A DNA stretch of 64,000 nucleotides from Plumapathes pennacea (lineage: Eukaryota > Cnidaria > Anthozoa > Antipatharia > Myriopathidae), in assembly GCA_964036295.1 (NCBI GenBank), contig OZ038470.1:11065078-11129077 (forward strand), read 5' to 3'. The notes under the pieces were generated by a model. The model saw only the letters and a list, made by a program, of their open reading frames with translations, did no database searches and was not told the DNA's origin. Each line of letters opens with the position of its first letter. The first letter of the stretch is position 1. The position numbers were made by a program, and so were the translations under genes. Of the stretch, positions 9,734 to 59,188 are shown in pieces.

Positions 9734-10533
9734 TAAATGGCTGCTAATGCTGTGAAATCCATGTGAGGAGAGATATTTTTTCCCACGCATTCTAATATGC
9801 TGTGATAATCGGCTTCTTGTTGACTATATCCGTATAAATTAAGACCACGTCGTCATAGGACCATGGTCAGCAAACTCCAGGACATCAACGCGAAGCCGAA
9901 AGCAGGGAAAACGTGATCCTTCAGAGCTTCTTTCTCCCCTTAAAAGCCAATAAAGTTTTCACCAGAGAAAGGTCAGTAAAACCTGATACAACTAAAGTGA
10001 ACCAGAGTATCACAGTAAGGTCGTCATAGAAACACGGTCAGCAAACCCCAGGACAGCAACGTGAGGCCGAAAAAGCAGTGAAATTGTGTCCCTTGAAAGC
10101 TTCCTTGTCTAACATACATGTTTTCGTTACAGCTGATTGACCCTCTAAACGCCAATAAATTTTTCACTGGAGCCAAGGTCAGTAAAAAACTAGAAGGCCG
10201 TCTCCTGCTGTTGGAGTGAGCCAAAATATTATGATAAAACTCTTGTATTCCGCGCATGCACTTTAAAAATGTTTTAATTTTTCTGACAGCCTTGTTCGCT
10301 AAAAAACTAATTGTACAAAATGTACACTGCAGTTAGATCACAACTGTGTCATACAGCTATTTGTAGTCATCTGTGAACTGTAGTAGTAATTCTGGCTTGG
10401 AATGAACATCGCTATTAATTTTGTCTTTTGAGAATGCGACGTGTACAATGTCCAACTAAGTAATAAATTAACGCGAAATAGAACTGCCTTTTTGTTGAAC
10501 AAAAACAGATTCCTTTAGAAACTTTGACGTTAT
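9734..10533. repeat. Tandem array of a roughly 120-200-bp repeat
   Basis: Units share GGTCAGCAAACYCCAGGAC, then GCCGAAAAGCAG, GCCAATAAA, TTTTCACCRGAG and AGGTCAGTAAAA. Units begin near 9865 and 10037 here; others are near 11935, 36124, 36265, 38420, 38575 and 39495. No coding sequence is visible. The origin of the repeat is unknown to me. Confidence 0.65.
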
Positions 10534-11938
10534 TCCCCGAGCTCCGCGAGAGTAATGATCACGCGGCCAATGGTGTAGTATCGCGCTTTTTTGAGACTCC
10601 AAACGGGGCGCCGTCTCGAAATTTAATGTTTGTCTGTCAGCTTGGCGTACGAACTTCAAGCGCGGTGGCTAAGCACTCTGTAATTAATAAGGAAAGAAAA
10701 GCAACTTGAACGAAGCAATATTGTACGGCATTCACGAAAATGAATTTGAAAACTGGAAACACAACAGTCTCGCAAAGCTCGTCTTCAAAAGAGAAGGGAA
10801 CAGGCACGGGCAAGGCGGAATCGTGAAACGATCGGACAGCGCCAAATCTTCTCGAGAAAAGACGACACTGATCATGTTATGACCGACGGCATCATCTAGT
10901 GTGCCGAAGAAACGACTCTGCAAAGAGAACAGCGCATGAATACCGATCAAAAGCGGCATGAACAGAGGCGCATAACACAGACAACTCCGCAAAGAGAACA
11001 CCCATAAAAGCGAATCGGGAATTTCAGGAGAAAAAGCGGGCCGAAGAAAATACTCTGCAAAGAGAACAGCGCATGAATGCTGATCAAAAGCGGTATGAAC
11101 AGAGGCGCATGACACAGACAACTCCGCAAAGAGAACACCCCATAAAAGCGAATCGGGAACTTCAGGAGGAAAAGCGGGCCGAAGAAAAGACTCCGCAAAG
11201 AGAACAGTGCATGAAAGCGGATCGGGAGTACTTTTAATATCGAAAGCGGACCTAGCAGCTGGCGATTTCTTTGAGACATTTGAGCACAACATAAATACGA
11301 TGGCGACGCCGTTTTGTGTTAAACTCGGATACTTATTCAGAAAACAAGCAACAAAGTTCAGTCAGTGGAAATCGAACAATTACCGTGGCAAAATATACAA
11401 GATCCAAGTTTTGACGACGCACACTACAATGGAAAGGGGAATTTTCGCACTGTATAAAGACTGCTTTTTATTTTGAAATCACTGAAGATGTAGATGAATA
11501 TGTTTTGGATTTTGTATCACTGGAAAAAACTAGCATCACGTCTTCCAGGAACCGGTGAGTTTTATAATATTTACAGTTGACGTACAGCAGTATGCTAATT
11601 GCAATCGTATTTGTCATTTTGATGTCCCGGGACCTGTGATGAAAGTCAAGTAGGATTATATTGTGACCTTTTCGCTAATTTTCGAGCTATTCCAGAGTGC
11701 CTTCGTGCAAGATAATCTTTTCCGTCGGGGTTTGCCGTTATTTCAAACTGTGTGACTTATACGAATAACAAATATTTTCTAGACACTTTCAAATGAAGAA
11801 ACAAGCGACTCTCGCTTTTAGTTATAAAATTGTTACACTCGAAGAAACGTAATGTTAGTATCAAGTAAAAAAGCATATATGTATTTGGTTAAGATACAGC
11901 GTTGGCTGGAGCAATTGCAGCTTTTGTTAAAATTCAAC
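10534..11938 (+). mobile_element. Second-subfamily Helitron-like STPR element (3' truncated)
   Basis: It starts A|TTCCCCGAGCTCCGCGAGAG, a diverged form of the copy 2 start, and has STPR-type coding remnants at about 10740-11226. Beyond these is a conserved tail (TPFCVKLGYLFRKQATK). The reading frame is broken several times. It matches 36746-38148 but stops near 11938, where array sequence resumes. Confidence 0.55.
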
Positions 11939-13702
11939 AGGACAGGAACGTGAGGCGGAAACGCAGCGAAATTGTGTCCTTTGAAAGTTTCCTTGACCAA
12001 CATACTTTTTTTCGCCACCGTTGAGTGACCCTTTTAACGCCAATAAATTTTTCACCGGAGCCAAAGTCAGCCGGAAAAAATAAAATAAAATAAAATAGAA
12101 GGCCGTCTCCTGCTGTTGGAGTGAGCCAAAATATTATGATAAAACTCTTTTGTATTGCGCCCATGCACTTTAAAAATGTTTTAATTTCTCTGACAGCCTT
12201 GTTCGACAAAAAAACTAACAACTGTACATTTACAAGATGTACACTGCTATTAGATCAGAACTGTGTCATACAGCTATTTGTAGTCATCTGTGAACTGTAG
12301 GAGAAATTTTGGCTTGGAATGAACGTCGCTATTAATTTTGTCTTTTGAGAATGCGACGTGTACAATGTTTAAACAAGTGACAAATTACGTGACATAGAAC
12401 TTCCTTTTTGTTGAACAAAAACAGATTCCTTTAGAAACTTAAACGTTTTATTGTTGGCTATTTATTTTCATTGTAAAATATTGTTTTGAAAGTGGCATCA
12501 GCCTGTGCGTGTGTGCAGCCCATTTGCCTCTGAAGACTGATTGTTTGCTGCGGAGCACCGGCGACGCAGCGAAAATATTTTTGTCACACTTTGTATACAG
12601 CGAACGAAGCCTTGCATGATCGTTCTACCAATTCAGAATTTGTAGGAAAGTATGGAAAATACAGCAACGAATCAGTGCGTAAATCTCGCGAGAGCAGACA
12701 GGCAGCTAAACATTCCAGAAAACGGGAGCGTGAGCCGTCTCGAATTCCTGCCAAGAAACTCTTAAATGCGATGCGCAGAAAAATTTGTCGGAAGAAAATA
12801 CGATCTTATGTTAGGCGTTTTATTCCAAGGTCATCACTACCCCCCACCCCCAACCCCTCGTTATCATATTATCAAAGCACCGCCCCCACCCGCTCGTCAA
12901 GCGCGCGGAACTGGACACGAGTCAATAGTATCTCATCGAGTTTTCGACTGTTTCGGACCATTTTTTTCGTTAGAATATCCAGTGTGGGCTCCTGTGTTAT
13001 GAGACGCAGCACTTCACTTCTCCTTGAGAACTACTAGTTTTAAACTTAATCATCATGGTAAGCATGTGATCCTACCCCTTACTAGGTTTGTTTACCATCG
13101 GTGGCCAACGTTCTTCCAGCGTGCATCGTGTGAGACTTATGGAACATTCCAAACAGAACAGTTTGGTTACCAACAATCGTAACCTTGTGCATAAAATCAA
13201 GCATCCAGTAAGATCTGCTTCATTTTATCCTCTCGCACGAAGCAGGAACAATCTTTTTGGTCTTCGGTTGACGCAGCACACTTTTGAGGTAAGCTTTCTG
13301 TCCTTTGCATTCGCGTTTGCCCCATCACTTCCTTGCTTGGTTGGGCTGTCGCAGCCGATTGTGTGAAACTCATTACATGGTAGTACTTGAGGTTGTTTCA
13401 ACGGATTTTCAAGGACAGAGCATAACGCTTGACTTTCTAATTACAAGCACGCACGCACACATTCGCGGCGAATTGTTTAATGATGAATTTCGCTGCGCTG
13501 TGCAGAAGAACTTCGTTCTGTAAAAGCTAGCTGTTGTATGTTTATCAATTTGTGAATTCAGCGTAAAAACAGGTGCTCTTATTTACGATCCAAGCCCCAC
13601 ATTACTTCTCATAGAAAGAGGTTGTAAGTAAGAAGTGTTTGAAGGTTTAGTTGGAAGTTCAATATATTTAACTTAGGCGCTAATAATTTCTTTCTGGTTA
13701 AG
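11939..13702. other. Non-coding stretch upstream of gene E
   Basis: 11939-12480 is more of the 120-200-bp array. 12481-13702 has no recognisable gene. A 148-codon frame (12591-13037) is rich in Arg, Lys and Ser at its start but has no recognised domain, and a 92-codon frame (13088-13366) is likewise unrecognised. This segment is absent from unit 2, so it probably carried the promoter that E' lacks. Confidence 0.5.
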
Positions 13703-14616
13703 ATGAATATGAAAATCTATCTGCTGGCTCTCCTTGTCTTCGTGGTAATCGACGCCACCATGGCGAGAAGGGGTGGCGGTGGGTCAAAATGCAAAGGAAA
13801 GAAAAAAGGTAACTGGAAATGTTCTTGACAGAGGCGGCAGCAGAAGGACAAGATAAGTTAACTCTGACGGAGATAGTAATAGAGTAACTATCTTTCGGAG
13901 ATCTGGTACAAGTTGTTTGATAATGGCGACTGACTAAAAAATTTCATGGGGCTCAAAGAAGTGAGTCCAAAATGAGTCACAAAAATATTCAATTGATAAG
14001 GTTGATGCAGGAAAGCGATTGAAGAATAAATAGGTTTCAATTGCCACATTGCTTTACAGTCTCAGTGTTTATTTGGATTCTTATACTCTTTTATGCAGCA
14101 CTGTGCGCACAGTTGAGCGCTTGCAAAGCGGAGAAGGATGAACAAGTGACGGAGATTGACGAATTGAAAGCGGAAAACGCAGGACAGGCGACGGAGATTG
14201 ATGAACTGAATGCGGAAAACGCAGGACAGGCGACGGAGATTGATGAATTGAAAGCGGAAAACGCAGGACAGGCGACGGAGATTGAAGACCTCAATGCAAA
14301 GATCAAAGAACTTGAAAATAGTATGAATGTAAATGTACAGTAGAACTCCGCCTTACGGCCACCCCGTTATTACGGAAATTTTTTGTTTGTCCCGCGGAAC
14401 AAACGCCCAGTCATTTTCTTACTTAAAAACCCCGTTAATACGGCCAGATTTTTATGTCCCGATGATGGCCGTAATAACGGGATTCCACTGTATGTCTTTA
14501 TGTAAACTGTGTATGTCAATATGCATGTATGTATGTATGTATGTATGTATGTATGTATGTATGTATGTATGTATGTATGTATGTATGCATGTATGTGTGT
14601 GTGTGTGTGTGTGTTT

Positions 14617-14659
<43 letters not shown>

Positions 14660-16945
14660 TGTGATGTTCAACGTTATTATGTCTACGCGCAAAAACAGAC
14701 GACGGTAATTATTAACAAACCATTAGCATCCTGAACATCTTAATTTGCTTTGCAAAACAGGATACTGGGAATGTCGTATTTCTAGTATGTACAGTATGTA
14801 CCGTATGTAGTAAGTGTGACGTAGTAACGTACGAAGTGAAATGTCGAACAGCAAACACTGGAATCATGCATAATAGAATCTTCATAAGTGCTGACAGTGC
14901 CTATTTTTACTTTTCAGAATGCAAAGTTAAGTGTTACAAGTCTTGCAAGGAAGCTTATGATGACGGCCACAGGTGTGTTTAGTGTCAGCTACTTTATAGA
15001 CCGCTTCCAGTCTCTTAGGTATCGAAAGCAAGGCGCGAAGCTCTGGCGCGAATAAAAGAGAATCTCCCTTTCTCGCCCCAGTCTTTCGCGCCTTGCTCCG
15101 GTATCTGAGAGTATGGAACAGGAACAGGATCGTTAATTGCACCATGGGAGGAATGAATTATCAGTAAAGCGGCTTGCTGTGTTATATAACAGATGTTTTA
15201 CCAAGTGATTCGATATATGTAAAAGCAGCAAGACAGGCTTATTATTAGTCATCAGGGGTTTCTTGTTTTCAAAGTTTTGTTGGTAATTTTGATCAGGGCG
15301 TCACTGTAGTGCAACTACCAGGAGACACCGCGGAAGTACGTTTTTCGGCCGTGCGGTCATTGCGCAAAACTGTGAAAAAACTCGCAAACTCAAGAAAATA
15401 GCAAAGTAATGGCGACAATGACTAATAAAAGTGACACATTTCCGTGATGTCCAATCTGGAGGTTTCCTTTAAATCATGCAGCTATTCTCTGCAAAAGAAA
15501 GTTTATAATCGTTGTGGTTGAACTATATGAGAGAATTTTATTTAGCTCGAAATATCTGGCCTTATGAATTTCAATACTTTTCTGCCAGGGAAAACAAGGC
15601 ATATTCGCTCTGCCTGGACTCTGGTGAGCATCAAGTGTACTGCCACATGTCTGTAATCAATGGATGCGGGTCGGGTGGATTTACGCTGGTCATGAAGATG
15701 GATGGCGCACAGGTAAGTGAATCAGGACACTGCGCATGCGTCTTTACCACTGTTCAAGTCATCAATACCTGAAACTAAAGCCTTTAGAAGTGGTAAATAG
15801 GCTGCGACGTTACATAAACCGTATTGATTAGCTGTCGAAAGGTACTGTGTGATTGCCCGAGTTTGCGGTGCTTTTAATCAACAAGTTTGGCTATTCAAAA
15901 ACAAAAAGAAATAAAAATTATTCGGTACGCGCAAGCAAGTGTGTGTTTACACCCTTCGTGAGTTGGTAGTGCCGTCTACTTCGGTTTACATACGAAAGTT
16001 GACTTCGAAAGCTACTTCAAGCCTTGCAGTGTCGATTGTGCAAAACCATTTCAGAGCCTAGTATTCTCTTTGTTGTTACTTTGAGCGCGTTTCCAGCTTA
16101 GCACCGATGGAAACACAGAAAGTTGTGTTCACTGAGTATAGTTTAGCCACTTATTGTAGTTTTGTTTAGTAGTCAAATATGGAAACAAAATGATTTCAGA
16201 CATCCTTCGTATGATATAGAAAAGATTAGTAAATTTCTGGTCCATCAGAGGTCACGAAAAACAAGAATCGATTTCTCTCTTGAATGACAGTCGTTCATGA
16301 ATATTGCATATAGTACTACGTAAGCGTTCTCGTACGGGTTATATAGAATGTTGGCAATGGGAAAGTTTGTCTGTCCATGGCGAAGAGGCTTTTATACTTA
16401 ATGTTAAACGTAAAGTGTTTTCTTTCTTTCAGAGCACTTTCTTGTATAACTCAGCCCTTTGGACCAACAAACAAGCGCACAATGTGGGCGCAGGAGTGAG
16501 CGGGTTTGACAATCAGGAAACCAAACTGTCAACGTACTGGGAGTCTCCGTTTAGCAAGGTCTGTCTCGGGATGAAAGTCGGTAATGACTTAAGGTTCATC
16601 TCAATCAACCAGAATGCTCCGTCTCTGTCTTCACTCATTGCTGATGGCCAGTACCGTGCAACGTCTATTGGCCGGAACGCGTGGAAGTCGTTGCTTAGCG
16701 ACGGCTCTCTGCAACGAAATTGTAACAAAGAAGGATTTAACGCCTTCGCAAATAAAGATGGGCCCGTAGCAAGGATTGGCATCTTAAGCAACGAGCAGAA
16801 TGACTGCAGCAGCTGTGATTCTCGCATTGGTTTTGGCACCGGAGGTAATCCTGATAAGACAAACTCGTGCGGAAATGTTGCATTTTGGTTTCCGGACAAC
16901 GGCGACAAACGTACCAAAGCCCACGGTTACATCTTAGTGCAGTAA
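13703..16945 (+). CDS. Gene E: secreted fibrinogen-like protein (skeletal organic matrix protein 5-like)
   Basis: Four phase-compatible exons: 13703-13808, 14918-14972, 15589-15712 and 16433-16945, giving 265 residues. An optional in-phase exon at 14099-14320 would add 74. Exon 1 encodes a signal peptide (MNMKIYLLALLVFVVIDA) and a Gly/Lys-rich stretch; exon 2 a Cys-rich linker (CKVKCYKSC). Exons 3-4 encode a fibrinogen-like fold with CGSGGFTLVMK, the YWESPFSKVCLGMK block, SLIADGQYRATSIGR, CDSRIGFGTGG, NGDK and the C-terminal GYILVQ. In cnidarians this architecture is commonly labelled uncharacterized skeletal organic matrix protein 5-like; a role in matrix or lectin-type recognition is inference. 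It should be secreted and soluble, with no membrane segment after the signal. The start is chosen because its exon ends in phase 1, as exon 2 requires. A polyadenylation signal lies at 17062. It precedes UGT B on the same strand. Confidence 0.75.
14099..14320 (+). CDS. Putative cassette exon of gene E: coiled coil of 14-residue repeats
   Basis: This is a 222-nt stretch between an AG acceptor (TTATGCAG) and a GT donor (gtatga). It enters in phase 1 and leaves in phase 1, so it can be included or skipped without changing frame. It encodes EIDELKAENAGQAT-type units of 14 residues (42 nt), repeated three to four times, ending in an EIEDLNAKIKELEN helix. The acidic heptad pattern predicts a coiled coil that could multimerise the fibrinogen-like domain. 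Only its last about 35 nt remain upstream of E' (39655-39690). Alternatively it is part of a separate transcript with its own hydrophobic start (14041-14098). Confidence 0.5.
14338..14490. mobile_element. pogo/Tigger-like MITE in intron 1 of E
   Basis: TA flanks the ends CAGTAGAACTCCG and CGGGATTCCACTG, which are inverted repeats with an internal ATTACGG / CCGTAAT pair. The CAGTRGAA start and TA target fit pogo-type Tc1/mariner elements. A second copy is at 39700-39854. Confidence 0.6.
14523..14658. repeat. Microsatellites (ATGT)n and (GT)n
   Basis: About 16 units of ATGT run from 14523 to 14589, followed by GT repeats to 14658. Long frames over it are compositional. Confidence 0.95.
15014..15112. 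repeat. Fold-back repeat in intron 2 of E
   Basis: TCTTAGGTATCGAAAGCAAGGCGCGAA pairs with a later TTTCGCGCCTTGCTCCGGTATCTGAGA (imperfect arms). The same hairpin is in E' at about 40815-40915. Confidence 0.5.
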
Positions 16946-17061
16946 AATGATCAAGAGACTCGTAAACAGTCTTATTTGGTTGCAGGGTTTAGGATTCAAA
17001 ACGAAGTTGTGTTGTATTATTGCACTGAGATGCATATAATGGGAACTGTAGTGGTAGTTCA

Positions 17062-17067
17062 AATAAA
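17062..17067 (+). terminator. Polyadenylation signal of gene E
   Basis: AATAAA lies 117 nt after the E stop codon. The corresponding site in E' (about 42970) reads AAAGGAAAA and has lost the signal. Confidence 0.5.
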
Positions 17068-18210
17068 AAGATTATTTGACAGTCAATATCAACTTTTGAA
17101 ATTAGTTACAAATTATTTCAAGTAACTTGGATAGTTTTTAAGTCTGTTGTAATCTTGCTGTTTTAAGAAATTGTAAAACGGGCTATAAAGGTCATAATAA
17201 ACGCGGGAGAAAGGGACTTGTTTATTTTATTGAGAGTTTCTCTCCTACCCCCTCCTCCCTCGACGCTCTTCTTGCGCTCGCTCCAATTTTCGCGTGGTCA
17301 AAACTCGAAAAAGTCTTTGTATGAGTTCAGAAACCTACGGGAACGCTTGTTACACAGACCATTCCTGAAGTGGTTCAGACGTCAAGGTAAGGCACAAAGC
17401 TGACCAGTTCAGCTTCCGTTAGGAGGTCCGCCGATTTGATGCAGAAACCAGAGCAAGCGAAGAGGAAAATGAGAAACAAAAACAAAAAATAAATATATAA
17501 ATAAATAAATAAATAAATAACAAGCTACCCAAACGGCTGAGTGATATTTTGGACGGGTAACTGTCAGCAGTTCCTCCCGTTGGGTGCGCCAAGCAACACA
17601 GGATATTCTGCATCAAGTTGAACTTTCGATAAAATTTTGTTGTGATTTCGTTTTGGTTTGATTTGGTTCTTGCTCCGCGTTCCAGGACCCAGTTTTCGTT
17701 TCCTGCTTCCAAGTTCTTGGTTCACATGTTTCCCGTTCCCAAGTTTCTAGTTGCCATGTTGGCCCTTTTCCAATTTTTCCCGTTCCCATGTCTCTCGTTC
17801 CAATGTTTCTCGTTCCCATATTTTCCGGTTCCCAAGTCTCTTTTCCCAGGTGTCTGGAGATCGGAGGAGATCGGTACTGAGATCGCACTAAGTTCGCATC
17901 GGCGTGCGTGCACACTTGAGGAAAGTTCTGCCTCTGGTGATGGCGGGATGAGCCGGCCGGGCGTGATGGCGGATGAAACTGTAAATTTGCAACATTTGTG
18001 GAAAGCGTCCTTGTCTTGTGGAGTGCGCGTGCATTTGTTCTGTTTCTGTCTGTTCATTTATAGTGTACACGTGCGTTATCGATTGTTTCTCTGCGTCCTT
18101 CTTTTGTTCGGGGGACGACGGGAAGGAGGAATGAGTAGCCGAGTTTCTCTCCTTCCCTCCTTCTCGTCACTCCAGAATAAGAGAGACGACTGGGGACGAG
18201 TCAGCCCGGT
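17068..18210. other. E-B intergenic region with a 15-bp minisatellite
   Basis: No gene is supported. An (AAAT)n tract sits at about 17489-17520. A degenerate repeat of about 15 bp, CGTTCCCATGTTTCT, runs from about 17700 to 17850 and produces artificial open frames on both strands. One unit of the 88-bp minisatellite follows at about 18004-18100. Unit 2 has the same layout at about 43590-43985. Confidence 0.6.
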
Positions 18211-18305
18211 GCTTGTGTGGTCTTTCTCGCTTTTGCGAGCGCTTTAATCATTGTGGATGTCGCATCCTGCGCAAAAATCGCGTGTTTCCTGATGTTCGGA
18301 GGAAG
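18211..18305 (+). pseudogene. Orphan UGT exon 1 remnant upstream of B
   Basis: It reads in frame VVFLAFASALIIVDVASCAK, then IACFLMFGGSPL, matching exon 1 of B closely. It lacks an in-frame ATG and loses similarity in the place where the acceptor segment and splice donor should be. It lies about 180 bp before the real exon 1. Its equivalent in unit 2 is at 44086-44180, and the exon 1 remnant of pseudogene A belongs to the same subtype. Confidence 0.7.
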
Positions 18306-18481
18306 TCCCCTCCCGTCCCCCACCCCCACGTCCTTTTAGACTCACCCCAGTTCATCCGCGCGCGCTGCTTGACAAAGCCTCAGCCTGTGTGCAGGCTCCG
18401 ATCACGCTGCCGTCACCTATTGTTATTTAAATCGGCCAACAGCAGTCATTTGACCGTCGTCTAGGAGTTTTGCACGCAAAC

Positions 18482-21400
18482 ATGGCGAGTGTATGTGTGA
18501 TCTTTCTCGCTTTTGCGAGCGCTTTTATCATTGTGGATATCGCATCCTGCTCAAAAATCGCGTGTTTCCCGATGTTTGGAGGAAGTCAGTACCTCGTGAT
18601 GAAACTTATCGGTGAGGAGCTGGCCGATCGCGGGCACGAGGTAAGAAATTTAATAAACTGTCCAAAAAAAATTTAAATTTGTCCTGTTAACATCCCTCCC
18701 CCCGGGCATTTGAACTTTTCGATTTTTGGCGGTCGAATTTCCCACGTTTCCCTCCGCACTGCTGTACACAGGCGGCCCAGACCCGGGAATCTGTCTGTCC
18801 GTCACACAGTGATGTTGCGTAACAGAAAATTATAAGGAAATGTATGGGGAAAAGCAACGATCTGGATAAGTCGTAAGATTCTGAATGAATTAAAATAAAA
18901 GCAGATGTGCCTGTTATTTGTGGCCTCTTGAGTCCCTCGTGTCGATTTCAAGCTGCTACAAATTTTCTGTGAACAACACAGAAATAGTGGCCACTAATAG
19001 TGGCCGTAGCGGCTTGAAATCGACACAAGGGACTCAAGAGGCCACAAATAACAGGTACATCTGCTTTTATTTTAATTCATTCAGAATCTTACGACTTATC
19101 CAGATCGTTGCTTTTCCCCATACATTTCCTTATAATTTTCTGTTACGCAACATCACTGTGTGACAGACAGACAGATCCCCGGAGTCTGGGCCGCCTGTGT
19201 GCTGTACAAGGCCTGAAATTCGTATTAGTATTGTAAAATACATGAGATGTGGGCTTAATCCGCCAGTAAACACGGCTTAACATAAAAAAAACCGGCTTGG
19301 TAAATCGATAAAACCGATTGCATGACGGGCATCCCCGTCCTCTTATATTTAGGAAACCCCCCATCCCCTCAGTAAAGAGTATGTTACATACATGTACCTG
19401 AATTCTGACACATAACTTTATGTGAGTTGAACCAAGTGAATACTTCCTGGAAAAATGCATGTAACATATAACAGCCTGTTAGCAGTATGAGAACAGATAC
19501 AAAATGAAATGGTAAAACCTTTAGACTTGCCTTGGTCCATAGTAAAAAACTTCTCTGTCCAATTGTATAAATTCAGGGGCAATTTTTCTTTTTCTCCCAT
19601 TCTATTTTTCTATTTTCTTTTTTTTTTTTTCTTTTTTCATTTTGGTATTTTGGTTTCAGGTCTCTTTGGTGGTCTCTTCAAACCAAAAAATAAAAAAATC
19701 TGAGAAGTTGGAACACAAGATCTTCAACATCCCATATGATGCAGGCTACCTTGAAAAGGAAATTATAGGCTATGGCATCAAAGAGGGCATGTTAAAGATG
19801 ACGTTTAAGATGACAGATGTGATGAAAGAGACATGTCACAAGCTACTGGGTGATAAAGAGCTACTTGATAGTCTGAAAGACTATGACCTCATGATTACTG
19901 ATATTGGAATGTCGTGTGCCCCTCTTGTAGCTGATTTGCTGAATATAAAGAGAGTGGAGATCTGTCCAGCTGCCCCTAACGTTCCTCTGTTATCATACCA
20001 TCAATCACCCATGCCAGTGTCATATGTCCCAAATCTGATGCTGGCTGGATTCAGCGACAAAATGTCATTTTTACAACGTGTGGCCAATTTTGCAGCATAC
20101 ATTATGTTTAGCTTTGTCCAAGATGTTATGTTTGCAGCTCCCTATACAAATATGAAGAAGGAATACAACATTAACCCAGAGAAATCTTACCAGGAAGCAG
20201 TTGGTGAGGCTGAACTTCTCCTTATCACTGCAGATTTTGCTTTGGAATATCCGCAGCCTCTTATGCCAGGTTTGTAAAGTAAACTAATAATTAGTATTGA
20301 CTGCCATCTCCCTCCACCCTTTGTACAGTATATAGGACTGCCAATTTGGACAGAAAATCTCTCCTGATAACCCCTCCCCCTCTCATCCTCCTGTCTTCAA
20401 ATAGAAACCCCAGCTACCTCTCCCAACTTCACATAAAATTACACATACTTTAGAGAACTCTGAGGAAATAACTGTACAACTACTACACTATATGAAAATG
20501 ATGAGTTGTATTTGACTGTTTAGAATAAAGAAAATGTTACTAGAAATGTGATCATCGCAGCCCCCTTGCACTGATGCAGTGATTTCGATTAAGTGCAATT
20601 TTCTGGTAAACTAAAATACTTTTCCTGTGGAAAATTTCTTCACACTAGCACAGGTTTTTGAAATATTGGCATTGTCTCAGGTGATTGTGTGATTTGTTTC
20701 CCGCCCACACAAAAAAGATCATTTATACTAAAGAATTCAAGGCTACAATATATTTTTAATTAATGGATAGGATTTTGGGACATTCTGGTGCAGCTGTCAA
20801 CACTAATAAATGACCACTGATCCAGATTGGCTTTGGCCAGAAAACCTATTCAGTACAGTGTAAACACAAGCCCTGAGTCTGAAGCTGTGGAGGGTACTCA
20901 CAGTAAGGTTTAATACAGGGATGCTAATTGCCCTGAGGTCCAAACCCTTATCCTTTCATATATTACCATTTTTGAAAGAAAAGGTACCCCAGGCCTTTCA
21001 CATACTTTTCATTAAAAATGGTACCTTTTTATAGACCTTTCCAAAAATGGCACCCCGTACATATATCTTCTATAAAATTGAAACACAGCTTAATTTTCCA
21101 TTATTTAAATGTTCAGAATAACCAAAACTTTGTAAAGTGACACCCCCTCCTCCTCTCCCCTTCATCTGTTAAAAATGTCAATAATATTGCTTCATATAAT
21201 AATTATATGATAATATTATTATCTGAAAAAGATTTACACAACAAAAAGATGGCTATTTATTGCCTGCATATTAAACCAGGTACAATATGATGGGGGATTT
21301 TGAAGTTCAAATTGCCTCATAAGAAACTTTTTGATTTTTTGGTGACTGTTTGTGGAATGGTGCTAAATTGGACTATAGGACTACTTATATCTGGAACCTC

Positions 21401-24169: not shown

Positions 24170-24386
24170 AAGCATGCCGCAACTCTTCTCCTAAACAGGG
24201 TGAGTTGGGATCACAGGCATTTTATGAGGGAGGGAAGAAGGATGGAGTGTTTCAGTCAAAGTTATTAGAACAGTTTTCGGTTGACTATCGAGACGAGTTG
24301 TGATTTCTTTGTTTTTGTGCTTGCTTCGCTTTCCGATTTGTCCAAACATGTTTAGCAGCATTCTTCGCCAATCAGGAACAAAAGCG

Positions 24387-24392
24387 AATAAA
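24387..24392 (+). terminator. Likely polyadenylation signal of UGT B
   Basis: AATAAA lies about 218 nt after the stop codon and is conserved at 51284-51289 in B'. Confidence 0.45.
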
Positions 24393-33507: not shown

Positions 33508-33680
<173 letters not shown>

Positions 33681-33684
33681 AATA

Positions 33685-35780: not shown

Positions 35781-35789
35781 GTGCACACT

Positions 35790-39655: not shown

Positions 39656-39699
39656 AAGCAAAGATCGAAGAACTTGAAAATGGTATGAATGTAAATGTA

Positions 39700-44304: not shown

Positions 44305-45274
44305 GGTTGTGACTAAACTGGATACTCCAAAATCAGGTTTCCGAGAGGAAACTGGGACCGAATCAAAAATTAAATTTTCGTCAGCTCGGACTGTGTTCCG
44401 AAAACAGTACGACAGTGACGTTGATGTTTTGAAAGTTCTTGGCGTGCATTAGCAAGTCCGTTCGGCTGGCCGCGTCGCGCCGCCTGTGTTCCTTTTACGC
44501 GGACGTGGAGGTCAACTCCAAATAAACCTGAAGCGGCTCAAGACATGGGTCGAAACTGTAACCAGTCAACAGATATACACAAGAAGCATTGTAGTCGTGA
44601 ACGTGAAAAGGACAATATTACTGTTTATTTGTAAAATTTCGGGTCAGCCGGCCATTTGCTCGAGAACACAGTGGTTTTGGATGAAAATAACTTATCTATA
44701 TAAGCATCCTAATACAATAAATACGGATAAATTTAGGATACGTTGGAAATCTGATCCGTCTATAACTGTTGGCTTCTATGGGCTTCATTTTTGTTTCTAT
44801 TTACTTATCATCCCTGTGGTGATTTTTGACATTTCGCACCTTCGAATGCTTAAATCTTAAATGCTTAAATGTCTTATCATAGCATGTCTTATCGTGAATG
44901 CGTTCGTCTTCTGGAGTTAAGACTGATCAAGAAACACAGGATCGTACACAAGCCGTTTCAATCGCTCTCCGGAACAGTTCACGCGGTGGGATTTTTTTAT
45001 CTTCGGTGTCAATATTCATCTGTGCCAGATCAGCCATAACAAGCCTTTCTTCTTTAGTATTTTCTCCCCGAGCTAATTTTTTCCTTCTAAAACCTTTCCA
45101 GTGCCGAATTTTATTTGACTGTCTTCCGGTGTTAGATGCTTCAGACGAACCGAGGTCGTTTTTTTGTCCACAATGTTCGTAAACGGCTCCGGACGACTTC
45201 GCCGATAACTCGTTGTTTTGGTCCCAGTCTTCACTCGGAAACCTGATTTTGGAGTATCCAGTTTAGTCACGACC
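44305..45274. mobile_element. 970-bp DNA transposon with 10-bp target duplication, unit 2 only
   Basis: Left TSD 44295-44304 and right TSD 45275-45284 are both ATTGTTAATC. The ends GGTTGTGACTAAACTGGATA and TATCCAGTTTAGTCACGACC are inverted repeats that extend inward for about 50 bp with mismatches. A 9-11-bp TSD suggests a Mutator-like or similar family. Both arms read as open frames (VVTKLDTPKSGFR). No full transposase is present. Absence from unit 1 shows insertion after the duplication or loss of the element from unit 1. Confidence 0.7.
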
Positions 45275-48300: not shown

Positions 48301-51066
48301 TAAATGTCAAACAACCCCAGCCCCTCTCCCCTGACATGGAACAGTTTGTTGCAAGTTCTGGGGATCATGGCATTGTGATGGTGTCATTTGGTTCCAATGT
48401 GGCTTCTGCTTTGGACAGAACCTTAGTGGATATGATGTCTGAGGCATTTGGTAAACTCAAACAGAAAGTTGTCTGGAGATGGAAAGGTAAAATCTGCAAT
48501 ATGTACTTCCATATTCAACTTCTTGGAATATCTTGTAAAATACCTGGTCGTCTTGTGAAATCTTGCAAAGATCTTATTGGTAAAATTTTTCTGAAATCTT
48601 GGCTAATCTTGTCAAGATCATGCCTGATCTGATAAGATATTTCCAGAAAATTCTTGCTTGTATCGACAAGATCCTGTCAAGATCTTGTTATGTATTTTTT
48701 AAAGATCTTGCCAACATTTTATTGGGAGATGTTACAGTACAAGATCTTGCCAGAACATCTTGCACGTCTGGAGTGTGAGTTTGCTTGTTTCTTTGTTAGG
48801 AAAGAACTCACTAAGGCTGATCTAATCTCAAGCAAACCTAGAGATTTGAGTTATAGCAGTACACGGGATACATATCATATCAAGATATATATACATATTA
48901 TATATCGTGGTTTCTTCAACAGGGTACATTCCATCCTCTCTCAGTCCCAACATCAAACTCGTGGAGTGGCTTCCACAAAACGATCTTCTCGCGCATCCTA
49001 AAACCAAAGCGTTTATTTCTCATGTTGGACACAACAGCTTGTACGAAGCAGCGTATCGGGGCGTTCCACTTGTGGCCGCTCCACTGTTTGGTGATCAGTA
49101 CTCGAATGCACACAAAGCTGAACACTTTGGTATTGGACTTGCAGTGGATCTAAAGACAACCAGTGCAGAAAAGTTGATTGAAGCCATTGAAAGAGTCATC
49201 TACGAACCAAGGTAACAGTACAGACAAAAAAACGCACCTCACAAATAGATGCGACCTTCTATTGATAGTGTGTACGTGGGGTTGCGCGTATTTTTTCTGT
49301 TCGTTCCATTTATAGTGTGCACGAGCGTTAGTGTTTGTTTCTCCGCGTCCTTGTCATGTGGAGTAAGCGCATTTGTTCTGTTGTTGCATGTGCGTTCCAT
49401 TTGTAGTGTGCACGTGTTTTAGTGTTTGTTTCTCTTCGTCCTTGTCTTGTGGAGTGCGCGCGCATTTGTTCTGTTTCTGTCCGTTCCATTTATAGTGTAC
49501 ACGTGCGTTAGTGTTTGTTTCTCTGCGTCCTTGTCTGGTGGAGTGCACGCATTTGTTCTGTTTCCGTCCGTTCTATTTGTAGTATGCACGTGCATTAGTG
49601 TCTGTTTATTTGCGTCCTTATCTTGTGGAGTGCGTGCGCATTTTTTGTTTCTGTCCTATGCAACCCGTGGGCAGAAGCGCGGTCGTCCGATTTTGTAGGG
49701 AACTCCCCCAGGGAGTTGACGTGTGGTCGGTACCTCGGAATATACAGACTTGACATTAAATATGGAATACCAGGTCACTTTTGCCACTTCCATAGAAGGC
49801 AAGCCACACAGTAACACCACGGCCCCCAGCCTGTACCCTAGGTAGTACACAGTCAACCGATACTGCTCTTTCCGTCGTTGACGTACTCGGACACGTCCGT
49901 CATGGCGGTACACCTCAAACCTGGCTTCATTACTAAATATTACAAGGTGCCAGTGGCCAACCTGCAGACGTCCATGGTCTCTTGCCAGCTGTAATCGCCT
50001 CTGTCGGTGAACTTGTGTCAGGAGAGGTTTCCTCAGAGGTCTCCTAGCCCACAAACTAGTGTTCACCCAACCAACTGTTGAGCAGAGTTCAGGATACAGG
50101 GACATTAATAGCATTCTGCCACTCAGTCCTGAGGGAGGAGGCTGTCCTTGTACGACCACCTATGCACATCCACCTGAGTAATCGATCTTGTCTTCTGGTA
50201 GTTTTGAAAGGATGTCCAGACCGAGGTCTAGGAGTAGGTACACCAGTCTCAGCATTCTCCTCAGGATCTTACTGACCGCTCCTTGCATAATGTTGTACTG
50301 TCCGGCTATGGCCGTTTGTGTGAGGCCACTGTTTCGGAGCGCAACAACCCCATGAGTCACCGCAGCACCCAACTGACGTACCATCACCAAGGAATAACTC
50401 TGTAAAATTTCAGCCAGCTACAACAATGCGTTCAGGAGATATAGATGGAAACATGTTGACCAGCGGTTTTTGTATAGATCACCAAAAAGCGTGCCACAGT
50501 GCTGATGGTATGTTCACTCACCCCACGCATGATTGAAAGCAATGATTGGTCTAAAAATCGCATGCCGGTCAGGTGACATGGTCTACTGTATACAGTATAG
50601 AGCATGTTGTTGCACCATTCAAATGCTCTGAAAACTGACTCTATTTATTTCATCCCGATTAAACAGAAACATATATTCCATATTTAATGTCAAGTCTGTA
50701 GAAATGTCGGCTGCTTTCCTTGCGTCATTGTTTGCGTCGCCTCTTGTATGAGTATGCCGTGAGAATCATGTTTCTCTCTTCAGGTTCAAAGAAAGTGTTA
50801 CTCGGATTTCCCGTCTTTTGAGTGACCGACGACGCACATCAGTTGAAGAATCCGCTGACTGGGTTGAGTACGTGCTCAGGCACGGAGGAGCGCGTCACTT
50901 GAGACCGGAAGTGTTCAACATCCCCTGGTATCAGTTCTACCTGCTTGACGTCATAGCGTTCCTTTTTGCCGTGGTGACTGTCATATTGCTGGTATTATGG
51001 ATGTTCTGTAGATGTGTGTGTCGATTGTGTTGTAGAAGAAGTGAAAGCAAGCCAAAGAAGGAATGA
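45323..51066 (+). CDS. UGT B': UDP-glycosyltransferase, complete, 515 residues, Gln at the catalytic-His site
   Basis: Exons 45323-45481, 46476-47085, 48280-48486, 48923-49211 and 50784-51066 have the same lengths and phases as B. The signal peptide, CFPMFGGSQYLVM (Gln36), DIAMLCAPLV, the UGT signature (WLPQND to DQ in exon 4), the single membrane segment and the KPKKE end are all present. By my reading it differs from B at 13 residues: nine in exon 2, four in exon 4, none in exons 1, 3 and 5. Intron 1 has the long fold-back element, intron 3 the AGATCTTG cluster, and intron 4 the minisatellite and dead Tc1. A likely polyadenylation signal is at 51284. It is presumably an ER membrane enzyme; donor sugar and acceptor are unknown. 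Confidence 0.9.
45604..46050. mobile_element. Long fold-back element in intron 1 of B'
   Basis: Counterpart of 18763-19209 with arms of about 200 bp. It was in place before the duplication. Confidence 0.85.
49255..49660 (+). repeat. About 88-bp minisatellite in intron 4 of B'
   Basis: Four to five units, one more than in B, with TTTCTCTGCGTCCTTGTC and TAGTGTACACGTGCGTTAGT motifs. Copy number has therefore changed since duplication. Confidence 0.75.
49745..50698 (-). mobile_element. Tc1/mariner element, defective, in intron 4 of B'
   Basis: Same TA-flanked CAGACTTGACATTAAATATG ends as in B. The minus strand holds a transposase C-part (49656-50159, FSNEARF) and, in a different frame, an HTH part (50160-50390, GLTQTAIAGQYNIMQGAVSK followed by ILRRM). 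Confidence 0.85.
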
Positions 51067-51283: not shown

Positions 51284-51289
51284 AATAAA
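51284..51289 (+). terminator. Likely polyadenylation signal of UGT B'
   Basis: AATAAA about 218 nt after the stop codon, conserved with B. Confidence 0.45.
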
Positions 51290-52534: not shown

Positions 52535-55500
52535 ATGGTTGTGTCTTTAATGTTTCTCGCTTTTTTCTGCTTATTAATCACAAGCTTTGAAGTATCCTGC
52601 GCGAAAATTGCGTGTTTCCCGATGGAGGGAGGAAGTCATTACCTCGTAATGAGAAATATTGCTGAGGAGTTGGCCGATCGTGGACACGAGGTACTAATCA
52701 GGAATACAGATTCGCACATGGTGGCTCACCCAGAGCATGCATTGACTTGCACAAAATTAAACGCATCTGTCGTCGTGTCGAACGACTCTGATGCGGTCAA
52801 GGTCAAACATCGGCCAAACATTTACGGACTTATTCTGTAAGCACAGTGCCTTCACATTAGAATTTGCTGTGATACTGATGAAACATTGGTTTGACTGTAT
52901 TTCTGTAAAAAGTTACGGAGAGAGGTTTGAATCCTTTGGTGCAGCAGTTAGGTTGTAGTATTGTACTAAAGTGTATTTTAATGTGTACAGAGAAATTTGT
53001 CCAACTTGTAAAATAGGGCCCGGTCGCACTGGGAAACTTAGTCGATAATAACTCAGCATCGAGAGCAATACGACGGCTTCTTCAGTGTTTGGTAGCGACT
53101 TGCTAACATTTATTTCTGGTGAATGATGCAAATGTCGATATTTATGTCGTTAAATTTACGGAGCGACCGGAGCCATATACATACACACTTGTAATTGTTT
53201 TATTGCATTGGCCCCAAGCGTTTTGTGATATTGATGGAACATTGCGGCCGGATTTTGCTAATGACGAATTAATTCAATTATCGACGGCTTATAAAACTGC
53301 AGCGATCATGATCGTAGCGATGGCTCGATTGCTCAGTTATCGCCTTATAATCCCTGAACGTGTTTTTTAACGACAGAATAGAAACATAGCTTTAAGCTGG
53401 TGTTATACTGGTCGATTTGCAACGACGATTTGCAACGCCGATTTGCTCCAAATCCACATAACGGTGCTGCAAGTTTTTGAATCGCTTTCAAAAACTTTCA
53501 ACGCGTTGCAGCACTGCAAACATCGCGAAAAATTGTTCGCAATGGGGTGTTACACCTCAACGATTTTTAGCGCAACATCACATCGTTGCAAATCGTCGTT
53601 GCAAATCGACCAGTGTAACACCACCTTTAGGCCTAGACGCGTTGTTGTGTGGAAACTGATTAATTACAATAAGTTTTTCCGGTCCACCACCCCGCATGGA
53701 CATTACTATTAAATTTAAGGCCCCGTTTACACTAGAGCGAATTTATCTGGATTCGAGGCATTTGTTTCCGGATTTGTGAAAGCGTTTACACTGGTTTTTA
53801 TGAATCCGGGATCATTTTTATTGACTCCGGAGAGAAAACTAATCCGGAATCGAAAATGGGAACTTTGTATCCGAAACAGTTTTCAAGTGTAAACGGGGCC
53901 TAAGAGTTCGGCAAGCTTTGTTTATACTAGAAACGAACCCAGTATCCGCCTGGACGAGTTATTCGGCAGATGGATAAAATCAATTGGAAACCAATTTTGA
54001 CGAATAGCCTCAGTGGTTATCGTGCGCCCGTCATTCGCCCCTAGGCATTAAAATTTGCATCACATTGAACTTTATTGTCCTCTTTTATCTTGTTTTCAAG
54101 GTCTCTTTGGTGGTCACTTCAATCCAACGAATAAAGAAATCTGAGAAGTTTGAACACAAGATCTTTAACGTCCCATTGAATGAAGATTACATTGAAGAGA
54201 ACATCACAAGCAAATGCATAAAATGGGGCGTATCACAAACGGCATGGAAGATGACAGAACTCCAGGCATTGATATGCGACAAGCTCCTTGGTGATAAAGA
54301 GCTGCTTCACAGCCTTAAAGAGTATGACTTGAATATCAGTGATACTGCGATGTTATGTGCCCCTCTTGTAGCCAATATACTGAAAATTAAGAGAGTGGAA
54401 GTCTGCCCTACCGCACCAAATGTCCCACGGTTAGTATACCGTCAAATCCCAATGCCAGTTTCGTACGTTCCAAATCTGGTGCTTGGGTTCAGTGACAAGA
54501 TGTCGCTTCTCCAACGCGCGGCCAATGCTGTAGCATACGTCGCATTTAGCTTTGTTAGAGATGCTATGATTTCAGCTCCGCTGATTAAAACTTTGGAGAA
54601 GAAATACAACATTAACCAGGAGACATCATTCCAGGGTGGAGTTGGGGAGGCTGAACTCGTCCTCATCACCGCAGATTTTGCTTTGGAATATCCTCAGCCT
54701 CTTATTCCAGGTAATTGTTAAAGTCCGTTAGTTTCAGCAAATGTTTATACATGACGTTTGGAGGATATAAAATAAAATAGGTTATATAGCTAATATACAG
54801 CACTTAGGTACCTGTAGTTTAAACCTTTCATTCCCAGGAGTGTAATACAACCAGAACTAGGTTGACTGTGTCGGCGTGGTGGAAGACGAACTGGTGTATC
54901 AACTGTGTGTTGATTAGGGTAATGGAACGCCGTGAAAGAGACAATAGCTGACGTTTCGAGCGCTAGCCCTTCGTCAGAGTTAATGACGAAGGGCTAGCGC
55001 TCGAAACGTCAGCTACTGTCTCTTTCACGGCGTTCCATTACCCTCATCAACACACAGTTGATACACCAGTTTGATTCCCAGGAGTGCACAACTCCAGTAT
55101 TTTCCGTTCAATCTCTCACCAGAGATATATCGTACAGTTTGGAGAACTTGGCTTCTGACAGCTTCATATTTCCTCGCCAAAAGTAGTTTATTGTTTCTAT
55201 AGTCTGTGTGATCGTACGGGTGACTGTTGTTGTTTAGTTGTTAACAGTGACTAGGTTTCTACTTAATAAATTTCCACTGGTTTGCCGTGGTGTGGACTCT
55301 TATTTACCACGGCAAACTAGTGGAAATTTGTTTTTTACCACAACATTTAGAAATATACAGGAAACTTTCGTTGTATTTCGCTGCAAAACGTGACATGCTG
55401 GCGTCAGCATCGTTGTCTGGACTCTTATTTACCACGGTAAATCGACCAATCAGAGAGCGAGAAACTTGTGTGTTGTGGTAAAATACCTAATCGGCGTCAG

Positions 55501-58500
55501 GTGATGATATCTATATCTTTGTTCGCTGCTGTTATTGGTCATTTTAGTCTTAATGTGATTGGTTGTCGAAACTCAAAGGGCCGTTCTTGTTCTAAGTTTC
55601 TATTGTTTCAGTGGGTGTTGATGATTAGTACTATAACTGATGCATTCAGTAGAGTCCAGTTTATGTCGTGTGTCCAGGAACACGTGATTCCTGATGTGAC
55701 CCTTTCTGGTCACGACGTGTTTATATGTGCTTATGTTTAGTCTCAGAGTCTTGTGTTCCCCAAACTGAGTTGCCTGGCAAAGTTTGCCATAACTCTGAAG
55801 ATGACTGCCACTCAGGTTTTCGAAACCTCAGCCAAAAACAGCAGTCAATCTGAAGCTGCTATTTTCACCTGGATGATCACACTCGATGAACAATTTTGTT
55901 AATCCCTCATTTCCACATATACTTGTTTAACCCTTTCACGTACTTCCGAGCTCAAAATACAAAATCTCTGTACCATTCATGAAGAAAATGTGTGAGTGAT
56001 GTGATGAGAATTGATTGTCAAATCAATCTTTATCTGAGCAAAGATGTGGCAACTTCTTCATACTGTATGATGTAGTATATCTTTGGTGCAGACTAAAGAA
56101 AAAAAACTAAGTTAGTTACCCTTGGGAGTGAAAGGGTGCAAGTATTGAACAACCATATTGAACTGCCATACATTCAAACTTGAATTGTTCCCTCTTGCAT
56201 TTGTCAATAGGAGCCATCATGGTTGGAGCTCTAAATATCAAACATCCCCAGCCCCTCCCCCCTGACCTTGAGCAGTTTGCTGCAAGTTCTGGGGAACACG
56301 GCATAATAATTGTGTCTTTCGGTTCCGTCGTGGCTACTCACTTGGAAAGAACCCATGTGGATATGATAGCTGAGGCAATTGGTAAACTCAAACAAAAAGT
56401 TGTCTGGAGATGGAAAGGTAAAATGTTTATGGAGCAGATACTGATTTACGTCTTGTAGTGGAGCGGTTTTCAAGTGAGTAAAGTAATTACATGCACTGCC
56501 AATCAGAGAAACTGCAAGAATTACTTTCAACCAAGACAAGGTTTTTTGGTGTTATGTGACGTCATGACGGCCAAGCACATTCTAATAGCAGTGTTCTCGT
56601 CCAACTCTTAGTAAACTCGTCAAATGAAACCTAAAGGTGTGACCACTCAAATGAAGCTCTCAATGAGTACATTCTAATAGTAGTGTTCACACAAATTTTG
56701 TGCGTTTCTAAATTTTCATAGAAACTTGACCAGCGCTTGTTGTCATAATCTAAAGTGGATACTTGGTTTCGATGTTATTCAGTGCCAAGTGCAAATTGCG
56801 TTGAATTTAGAGTTCAGTAGTTTTGAAGAGAGTTACTCAAAGTTTTTTCTTCAATCAAACGTTCCTACCTTATACGTCTTACACGACCAAGGGAATTGAA
56901 TTATATAGCAAGTCAAAAAGTGTAAAGCCACTATATAAGAGACGGAAAGGCAAATTAACGATTAATACCGACTGAATTTCAGAATTTTTAGGTGATCTAG
57001 CTATACTTTGTTTCCTGTTTTTGTTTTTGTTGTTTGTTTGTTTATTTTATTTTATTTTATTTTTCTTTTTTCTTTTTTAGGATACATTCCTTCCTTTCTC
57101 AGTCCGAACATAAAAATCGTGGAGTGGCTTCCACAAAATGATCTACTCGCGCATTCTAAAACTAAAGCGTTTATTTCTCATGTTGGACACAACAGCTTGT
57201 ACGAAGCGGCGTATCGGGGCGTTCCACTTGTGGCCGTCCCACTGTTCTCTGATCAGCACTATAATGCGCGCAAAGCTGAACACTTTGGTATTGGACTTGC
57301 AGTGGATCTGAAGACAACCAGTGCAGAAAAGTTGATTGAAGCCACTGAAAGAGTCATCTATGAACCAAGGTAACGACGCTTTTGATCTCATCACATTTTG
57401 GAACGAAATTCGAAAGACAAAATTGGCACAAACAAGCCAAAAAGGCAACAAAATACCACTTCTTAACATGCCAACAGAAATACACTAACAAGGCACCTGC
57501 ACACTAAATATGCACCAATATGAAACAAACAGAACAAATAGAGGCCCTGTTTATATGAGAAAAAGTTGGCCCGGGGACCCGAGTCACCCTCCTCCTCCAT
57601 GGGCGCGCCAGTATTCATACAATTCTTTATAAGTCGAAGCGAGCGTTTACATGACAAATCACAAGTTGCCTCGAGGCCAGGTTGACCCTGGGGGCAGGGA
57701 CACTTGGTTGATGAAACGCCAACTTTTCTCCATGTCAACACTTTGGCTCGGGAGGGAGGGCCAACTCGCGTTTACGGAACGCTGTTGAAAAACGAAATTT
57801 CGGCATAATCGAAAACACAAGAGCACAGAAATCAACGATAAGACGATCTTTCTTCGGTCTGTCTTTCGTGGGCTTTATAAACTGAAATTTTCCCAGTCTC
57901 CAAACCGAGAGAGCCAGCTTTGACCCGGTTTACCGGGACAACTTTTTTCCATGTAAACGCTCGGTACACTTGACTCGGGGAGGAGGGTGACTCGGGTCCC
58001 CGGGCCAACTTTTTCTCATATATACAGGGTCTCAGAAAGAAACGCTAACGCACGTGCACACTACAAATAGAACGAATAGAAACAACATAAATGCACACAC
58101 TGCACAAGACGAGGACGCAGAGAAACAAACACTAAGGTCCTGTTGATATGAGAAAGAGTTGGCCCGGGGACCCGAGTCACCCTCTTCCTCGAGTCACCCT
58201 GGGCGCGCCAACTATTAATACATTACTTTTATAAATCGAATCGAGTGTTTACATGACAAACCACAACTTGCCTCGGGGCCAGGGTGACCCTGGGGGCAGG
58301 GACACTCGGTTGATGAGAGGCCAACGTTTCTCCATGTCAACACTTTGGCTCGGGAGGGAGGGCCAACTTGCGTTTACGGAACGCTGTTAAAAACAAATCG
58401 GCATAATCGAAAACACAGAGCACAGAAATCAACAATAAAACGATCTTTCTTGGGTCTGTCTTCCGTGGAGTTATAAACTAAGTTTTAAAATTCTTTCGAG

Positions 58501-59188
58501 TCTCCAAACCGAGAAAGCCAGTTTTGACCCGGTTACCCGGGACAAATTTTTTCCATGTAATAGCTCGGTAAACTTGACTCGGGTCCACGGGCCAACCTTT
58601 TCTCATCAGGGCCTAATGCACGTGAACACTATAAATAGAACAAACAGAAACAGAACGAATGCGCGCGCAATCCATAAGAGAAGGACGCAGAGAAACAAAC
58701 ACTAATGCACGTGCACACTATAAATGAAACAAACAGAAACAGAACAAGTGCGCGCACACTGCATATCTGCATATAACAGCGACGCAAGCCCACAAACGTA
58801 TGTGCACATTGTATAACGAATGCAAGTGCACCTAGAGAACTCGAGGGACAAACGATTAAGGAATCACTCATCTATGTTAATAATCTTATTCTTATTCCTC
58901 TTCAGGTTCAAAGAAAACGTTACCCGGATTTCCCGCCTTTTAAGTGACCGACGCCGCACATCAATGCAAGAATCCGCTGACTGGGTTGAGTACGTGCTCA
59001 GGCACGGAGGAGCGCGTCACTTGAGACCGGAAGTGTTCAACATCTCCTGGTATCAGTTCTACCTGCTTGACGTCATAGCATTCTTTATTGCTATAGAAAT
59101 TGTGATCGTCTTGGTTGTACGGATGTTTTGTAGACTAATATTTCGTTTGTTTTGCAAAAGAAGTGAAGATAAATTGAAAGAGGAGTGA
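52535..59188 (+). CDS. UGT C': UDP-glycosyltransferase, complete, 514 residues
   Basis: Exons 52535-52690, 54101-54710, 56211-56417, 57081-57369 and 58906-59188 join in phase without a stop. Exon 1 gives a signal peptide (about residues 1-22) and CFPMEGGSHYLVM with His35 at the usual catalytic-base position. Exon 2 has the partner Asp region (NISDTAMLCAPLV). Exon 4 carries the UGT signature (WLPQNDLLAH, SHVGHNS, DQ). Exon 5 carries a membrane segment (YLLDVIAFFIAIEIVIVLVV) and a basic tail ending KLKEE, weaker as an ER-retrieval signal than KPKKE of B. It is the intact counterpart of truncated C. Intron 1 holds two MITEs; intron 4 holds two tandem 485-bp inverted-repeat elements and reverse minisatellite units. 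Likely an ER conjugating enzyme; substrate unknown. A polyadenylation signal lies at 59242. Confidence 0.9.
53395..53626. mobile_element. 232-bp Harbinger-like MITE, only in unit 2
   Basis: The ends GTGTTATACTGGTCGATTTG and CAAATCGACCAGTGTAACAC are inverted repeats, flanked by a TTA duplication (53392-53394 and 53627-53629). The empty site is seen in unit 1 near 26318 (GCTTTACGCC). The class is inferred from the 3-bp TTA duplication. Confidence 0.75.
53718..53902. mobile_element. MITE with GGCCCCGTTTACAC ends in intron 1 of C'
   Basis: Counterpart of 26410-26594. Confidence 0.75.
54891..55069. mobile_element. Hairpin MITE in intron 2 of C'
   Basis: Counterpart of 27588-27770; the arms pair slightly better here than in unit 1. 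Confidence 0.85.
55272..55487. mobile_element. Inverted-repeat element in intron 2 of C', only in unit 2
   Basis: AAATTTCCACTGGTTTGCCG pairs with CGGCAAACTAGTGGAAATTT within 60 bp. A second CTCTTATTTACCACGG occurs near 55421. Unit 1 reads directly across (TTTCTACTACCTAATCG near 27957). Confidence 0.6.
57542..58032. mobile_element. Inverted-repeat element in intron 4 of C', copy 1
   Basis: AGAAAAAGTTGGCCCGGGGA at the left and TCCCCGGGCCAACTTTTTCT at the right are exact inverted repeats. The interior has GTTTACATGACAAA and CATGTAAACGC motifs. No coding sequence. Confidence 0.75.
58134..58614. mobile_element. Inverted-repeat element in intron 4 of C', copy 2
   Basis: Same family as 57542-58032 and in the same orientation, about 100 bp away, separated and flanked by reverse minisatellite units. 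It has a small internal duplication (GAGTCACCCTC, then GAGTCACCCTGGG) near the left end. Confidence 0.75.
58615..58800 (-). repeat. Reverse minisatellite units in intron 4 of C'
   Basis: ACGCAGAGAAACAAACACTA and GTGCACACTATAAAT motifs, the same orientation as at 35790-36123. More units lie at about 58033-58133. Confidence 0.7.

Follow-up and report, generated by a model that had tools for sequence, protein, structure and literature searches.

The 64,000-base stretch of the Plumapathes pennacea assembly analyzed here (the window; C9:11,065,078-11,129,077, from a genome of 290 Mb in 24 contigs) carries two collinear copies of a gene block, arranged head to tail. They probably stem from a genuine direct tandem duplication followed by loss (probability around 0.78, a figure that includes most of a version in which a hybrid haplotype came first). 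The block that was duplicated has the content E-B-C-D, in which E is a putative secreted gene and B, C and D are UGTs. The earlier note had assigned two UGTs to each block and let unit 2 end at 58.8 kb. Three UGTs belong to the block, the third being D in unit 2, and the unit ends near 65.4 kb.

The two units and their junction

Self-comparison of the window chains 9895-33353 to 36125-57376, and the two collinear E-B-C copies described earlier indeed lie head to tail.

9895 to 36124, + strand: unit 1, with E, B and a UGT that is a C/D hybrid and lacks exon 5, defined by collinear alignment with 36125 onward
36125 to 64000, + strand: unit 2, with E', B', C' and D, continuing past the window edge to ~65,400
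36124 to 36125, no strand: unit junction, 0-1 base common to both sides

Position 36125 aligns to 9895, which places the junction at 36124|36125 (C9:11,101,201). Unit 1 terminates in CTATAAATG, and unit 2 starts with GCCGAAAGC, the same sequence as at 9895. A minisatellite runs up to 36124, an E-associated module begins at 36125 and a high-copy repeat at 36817. No junction-crossing exact word of 20, 25, 30, 40, 60 or 80 bases recurs within 244 kb. The 244,000 bases around the junction (the window plus 90 kb on each side) contain 0 N, which is still compatible with a filled assembly gap.

Alternatively, the assembler may have written two haplotypes of one locus in tandem. One haplotype would carry a C/D deletion hybrid and an open E, and the other an E' without its 5' exons together with complete C' and D. 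We consider this unlikely. The geometry would suit it, in that both arms share both end points like a bubble whose arms were written in succession, and repeats flank the junction, but the junction has no N and none of its crossing words recurs nearby. According to Ko et al. 2022 (PMC9516828), false duplications can be recognised by half depth, single-copy k-mers, discordant read pairs and gaps that separate the copies. The locus resembles the false heterotype duplications described there in having two adjacent similar copies in one scaffold, and differs from them in that no assembly gap marked by N lies between the copies. The same authors also describe a true tandem duplication, specific to one allele, whose depth is haploid; depth by itself is therefore not decisive.

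The idea that unit 2 starts with an independently inserted high-copy element was mostly rejected, from the matches of 9737-10605 and 10969-11936. The best matches of the former outside the block are on C2 and C11, those on C2 near E relatives, and many others are short pieces (best 40 of 266 candidates). The latter includes a high-copy repeat; its unit-2 copy is 93% identical, and the next match reaches 87% over part of it (best 40 of 3,599 candidates).

On C11, two sets of matches to the E-upstream module occur in the same order ~27 kb apart (C11:5681805-5684432 and 5708408-5712623) and perhaps mark another tandem block. No third copy of the block itself was seen with B intron 2 as a query. 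Among 41 listed matches (best 40 of 233 candidates scored), one is full-length at 100% and one other full-length at 96% (B'), and the remaining 39 are partial and at most 89% identical.

UGT genes

The cluster holds six UGT loci (A, B, C, B', C' and D), versus four with a complete five-exon frame (B, B', C' and D; splice sites were inspected for C, C' and D).

935 to 7770, + strand: UGT A, in the left flank of the block and outside the duplicated unit, exon 2 cut short beside a repeat element
18482 to 24169, + strand: UGT B, five exons, 515 aa
25478 to 33346, + strand: UGT C exons 1-4, exon 4 with +1 and -1 homopolymer indels leading to a stop, no exon 5
45323 to 51066, + strand: UGT B', five exons, 515 aa
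52550 to 59188, + strand: UGT C', five exons, 509 aa
60323 to 64000, + strand: UGT D, five exons, ending at 65,700 beyond the window, 513 aa

B, the only UGT scanned as a whole protein, is a full-length UDPGT (PF00201, E = 1.9e-119, above the cut-off), with residues 29-507 covering profile positions 6-495 of 499. In the PDB, it is matched best by UGT2B chains 166-191 residues long. Peptide queries from B exons 2-5 (E up to 0.001) detect no UGT exons outside the cluster in 244 kb. Genome-wide, an exon 2 query yields 15 matches, namely B, B', C, C' and D (64-100% identity), two remnants of A and eight elsewhere (28-36%).

Exon searches and gene models bear out the earlier claim that exon 5 is present in C' and absent from C. 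In exon 4 of C, an A run is one base longer (A4 to A5) and a G run one base shorter (G4 to G3), which creates a stop; these homopolymer length changes could be sequencing errors. Their position in homopolymers would also suit the two-haplotype reading.

Exon 4 is ~92-97% identical among the A, B, C' and D types (6127-6415, 22119-22407, 48923-49211 and 57081-57369), whereas exon 2 of the B, C and D types is ~75-76% identical, a sign of exchange between paralogues. Likewise, dS between the B, C and D types is 0.59-0.92 in exons 1-2 and drops to 0.21-0.23 in exon 4. From this drop, the 3' exons seem to have been homogenised between paralogues and may have offered a substrate for the C/D hybrid. 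One repeat occurs three times at 93-94% identity, at the broken exon 2 of A (1731-2607), left of the block (8459-9735) and, inverted, in the unit-1 intron insertion (33683-34943).

A C/D hybrid at the end of unit 1

The last UGT of unit 1 matches C' in exons 1-4, but its intron 4 matches D and not C'.

33295 to 33350, + strand: C-to-D switch at the exon 4/intron 4 border, within 56 bp that C, C' and D share without a difference
33354 to 36093, + strand: D-type intron 4 located 3' of C exon 4 and interrupted by a unit-1-only insertion (33402-35348)

As in a hybrid gene, the upstream part follows one paralogue and the downstream part another, and the switch falls inside shared sequence, between the last C-type site (33294) and the first D-type site (33351). 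Two segments of the intron are collinear with D intron 4: 33354-33401 with 64045-64093 (4/48 mismatches) and 35349-36093 with 64568-65371 (30/745 mismatches, 4.0%). Outside the minisatellite, the start and end of C intron 4 reach local alignment scores of 86 and 721 to D. The corresponding scores to C' are 23 and 28, the level of shuffled sequences (highest of 200 shuffles 28 and 29, with the shuffles preserving base composition only). Intron 1 of C and C' has no likeness to D in local alignment. Introns 2 and 3 share only short patches with D (scores of 91 and 117 for C, 71 and 117 for C'), as would be expected of old paralogues.

Unit 1 ends in a minisatellite within the D-type intron, ~45 bp before the would-be D exon 5, and its final 31 bases are minisatellite that D does not have. 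The end of unit 1 and the right breakpoint had been placed in C intron 4 by the earlier note, wrongly, as the intron there is D-type (721 to D versus 28 to C'). C lacks exon 5 because of the C/D fusion together with the breakpoint in the minisatellite. Since the 4.0% difference between the two introns falls inside the range seen across the other parts of the block, we infer that D was part of the same duplication.

Conversely, this intron could be the ancestral one of C, acquired by D through conversion and replaced in C' by unrelated sequence. Such a history also yields C and D alike and C' unlike. We consider it very improbable, as it takes two events versus one, and as C' exon 5 together with the 3' end of C' intron 4 aligns to D at 75%, the level of old paralogues, against a difference of 4% between C and D. 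Two independent insertions of one repeat were rejected as a source of the D-like intron. A dispersed repeat does form part of this intron; its other scored copies stay at or below 78% identity over that part, although short pieces reach 89%, and none of them carries the rest (best 40 of 548 candidates).

Gene E and its truncated copy

13703 to 16945, + strand: gene E, exons 13703-13808, 14099-14320, 14918-14972, 15589-15712 and 16433-16945; 339 aa, open frame, GT-AG introns
39654 to 42859, + strand: gene E', reduced to its last three exons preceded by ~29 bp from the 3' end of the coiled-coil exon

In our reading, E encodes a putative signal peptide, coiled-coil repeats, a Cys segment and a FReD-like C-terminal domain. 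The Fibrinogen_C match (PF00147, residues 116-169) scores 16.4 bits, below the gathering cut-off of 22. We therefore keep 'fibrinogen-like', the identity given to E earlier and weakly supported by this score, as a working label. Two partial E queries have no Pfam match, and a PDB search with E returns nothing better than an E value of 0.66, to unrelated proteins. Structure prediction of the last exon gives a mean pLDDT of 31.6 (two sequences). Fibrinogen-related proteins combine a coiled coil with a C-terminal recognition domain. E resembles them in its predicted secretion, its coiled coil and its weak match to the start of Fibrinogen_C, but differs in that this match is below the cut-off and covers 54 residues only.

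Missing from E' is the counterpart of 12547-14291, a stretch that includes the signal-peptide exon and the greater part of the coiled-coil exon. A 746-bp query spanning these 5' exons of E finds in unit 2 a match for its last 54 bp alone. The last exon of E' is still open, and the two preceding exons are present. Two sites on C2 (C2:2723213 and C2:2731560), each upstream of a C2 last-exon match, retain 550-600 bp of the same query.

The E last exon has 93 matches in the genome, from which 12 loci were fetched. Twelve sequences were tried in the last-exon comparison, and locus L038, which has no open frame, was dropped. E and E' differ in this exon with a dS of 0.155 and a dN of 0.130, and E' is closer to two C2 relatives (dS 0.107 and 0.087, dN 0.062 and 0.067) than to E. 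The last exons (16433-16945 versus 42344-42859) also diverge far more than much of the upstream flank (4-5%). E and E' are sisters in trees of the sequence before the last exon (15180-15936, support 100/99) and after it (80/85), each with 12 rows, some of which sit on very long branches and are perhaps misaligned. In the last-exon tree (11 rows), the two are not clearly grouped (support 40/11); the branch leading to E measures 0.127 and that to E' 0.029. We count the sister relationship around the exon in favour of the duplication, and the weak grouping in the exon itself against it. A tract from some other gene of the family may have entered the E last exon, or this exon may have changed fast. 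Elsewhere in the E family, two relatives 344 kb apart (L030 and L032, C10:14.57 and 14.91 Mb) diverge by no more than 1.4% in 3,359 aligned sites and are thus recent segmental copies.

Unit-specific insertions and flanking repeats

Four indels between the units, previously called clean transposon insertions, do exist with slightly shifted limits. One of them, 44305-45274, is not perfectly clean, as the matching site in unit 1 holds extra bases.

28539 to 32102, no strand: unit-1-only insertion, inside it a ~1.18 kb stretch with many 99-100% copies elsewhere
44305 to 45274, no strand: unit-2-only repeat, 970 bp, with inverted ends and near-identical copies elsewhere
53398 to 53624, no strand: unit-2-only insertion with terminal inverted repeats and an empty site in unit 1

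The 970-bp repeat has a 100% copy on C4 and is probably a DNA transposon. The fourth indel lies at 55264-55522. Insertions of elements with near-identical copies elsewhere in one unit only would also be compatible with two haplotypes.

The flanks carry further repeats. Among the matches listed, three direct repeats of ~2.7-2.9 kb on the left (L009:3626-6359, and -73072 to -70131 and -51655 to -48674 relative to the window) are 91-92% identical and have internal tandem units of ~120 bp. On the right, the listed matches include long tandem arrays (L020:553-4097, L025:3461-6550 and L026:522-7902), one with units of ~670 bp. On contig C24 (L051), cox1 is split by a stretch whose open frame we take to be homing-endonuclease-like.

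Divergence between the units

The units differ by 3% on average, with 1-kb windows ranging from 0.5 to 8.3%. Over 13 chained blocks, differences amount to 419/13,839 noncoding (3.03%) and 95/3,480 coding sites (2.73%), a split that used E exon limits a few bases off the final E model. The E part (14661-18425) is more diverged than the B-C part (18443-33353), at 192/3,666 (5.2%) and 195/10,942 sites (1.8%), respectively; the chi-square of 125.8 is indicative only, as sites are linked. B and B' have a dS of 0.037 in exons 1-4 and 0.033 in full, and C and C' of 0.024 in exons 1-4.

Overall divergence of 3.0%, and of 0.5-3% in the B-C part, would also fit two haplotypes, since 0.5-3% may be within reach of two alleles in an outbreeding marine invertebrate. 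The dS of 0.155 between the last exons of E and E' versus 0.033-0.037 for B/B' and 0.024 for C/C' argues against them, although conversion could raise the dS of alleles too. Each haplotype would moreover lack a different gene set. Unit 1 has lost the C 3' end and most of D, unit 2 has lost the E' 5' exons, and B is kept twice. Losses in different genes of each copy are expected after redundancy and thus favour a real duplication. The earlier note had left duplication and uncollapsed haplotype side by side; the lack of N and of recurring junction words, the complementary losses and the uneven divergence give better support to the duplication.

Polarised by D, substitutions in exons 1-4 number 6 nonsynonymous and 1 synonymous in C, and 2 and 5 in C', with 7 unpolarised. 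This weakly suggests relaxed constraint on C. The corresponding counts are 4 and 2 in B and 6 and 6 in B', with 4 unpolarised. The counts are small and intact-looking B also has more nonsynonymous than synonymous changes, so they do not strongly single out C.

Proposed origin of the block

From these observations, we infer the following order of events and mode of joining, with both copies on one chromosome of the animal. A single A-E-B-C-D array would have been duplicated from position 9895, in the low-copy module upstream of E, to the minisatellite ~45 bp before D exon 5. The product would have been ordered E-B-C-D(exons 1-4) and then E'-B'-C'-D in full. End joining at the junction appears more likely than exchange between long repeats, because only 0-1 base is common to both sides. 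Later, C and D of unit 1 may have recombined at the identical end of exon 4. The C 3' end would have been removed along with the 5' part of D, leaving behind a tail-less hybrid that then acquired frameshifts. In unit 2, the signal-peptide exon of E' would have disappeared together with nearly the whole coiled-coil exon.

The hybrid could instead be older than the duplication, with a real duplication arising through exchange between haplotypes, one of which already carried it. This version overlaps the account above and leads to the same final structure. The divergence of 4.0% in the C/D intron 4, higher than the 1.8% of the B-C part, would suit it, but it requires a polymorphic hybrid and an ectopic join without homology. 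The sequence alone fits both accounts, and we regard an older hybrid as possible, if rather doubtful.

Comparison with known systems and significance

The E-B-C-D block is a new instance of known processes, namely tandem segmental duplication, the formation of hybrid genes by recombination between paralogues and complementary loss. The human UGT2B cluster consists of tandem animal UGTs (PF00201) with common gene deletions. The coral cluster resembles such animal clusters in its head-to-tail genes of one family, copy-number change and alike 3' exons. It differs in the non-UGT gene E inside the unit and in the hybrid without exon 5. The drug-metabolising GSTM (PMC5918908) and CYP2D6 (PMC7692531) clusters, in which deletions or hybrids occur, likewise have structural variants among neighbouring paralogues; those are other enzyme families, and our data are one assembly rather than population data.

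The junction puts a tail-less UGT (C exons 1-4) before the head-less lectin-like E' on the same strand, and the ends of C exon 4 and the fourth E-type exon match in phase. A C-E' chimeric transcript could in principle be spliced, which we consider exceedingly improbable, and the frameshift and stop in C exon 4 would speak against a working C-E' protein. If such splicing were true, hybrid genes would arise in the cluster again and again from the similar exons 4.

The corrected breakpoint provides a precise target for reads or PCR. That UGT loci outnumber complete frames calls for caution when counting such genes. A cluster of detoxification genes and, next to it, a secreted lectin-like gene would have been copied as one unit and then thinned, leaving about one complete copy of each gene, B excepted.
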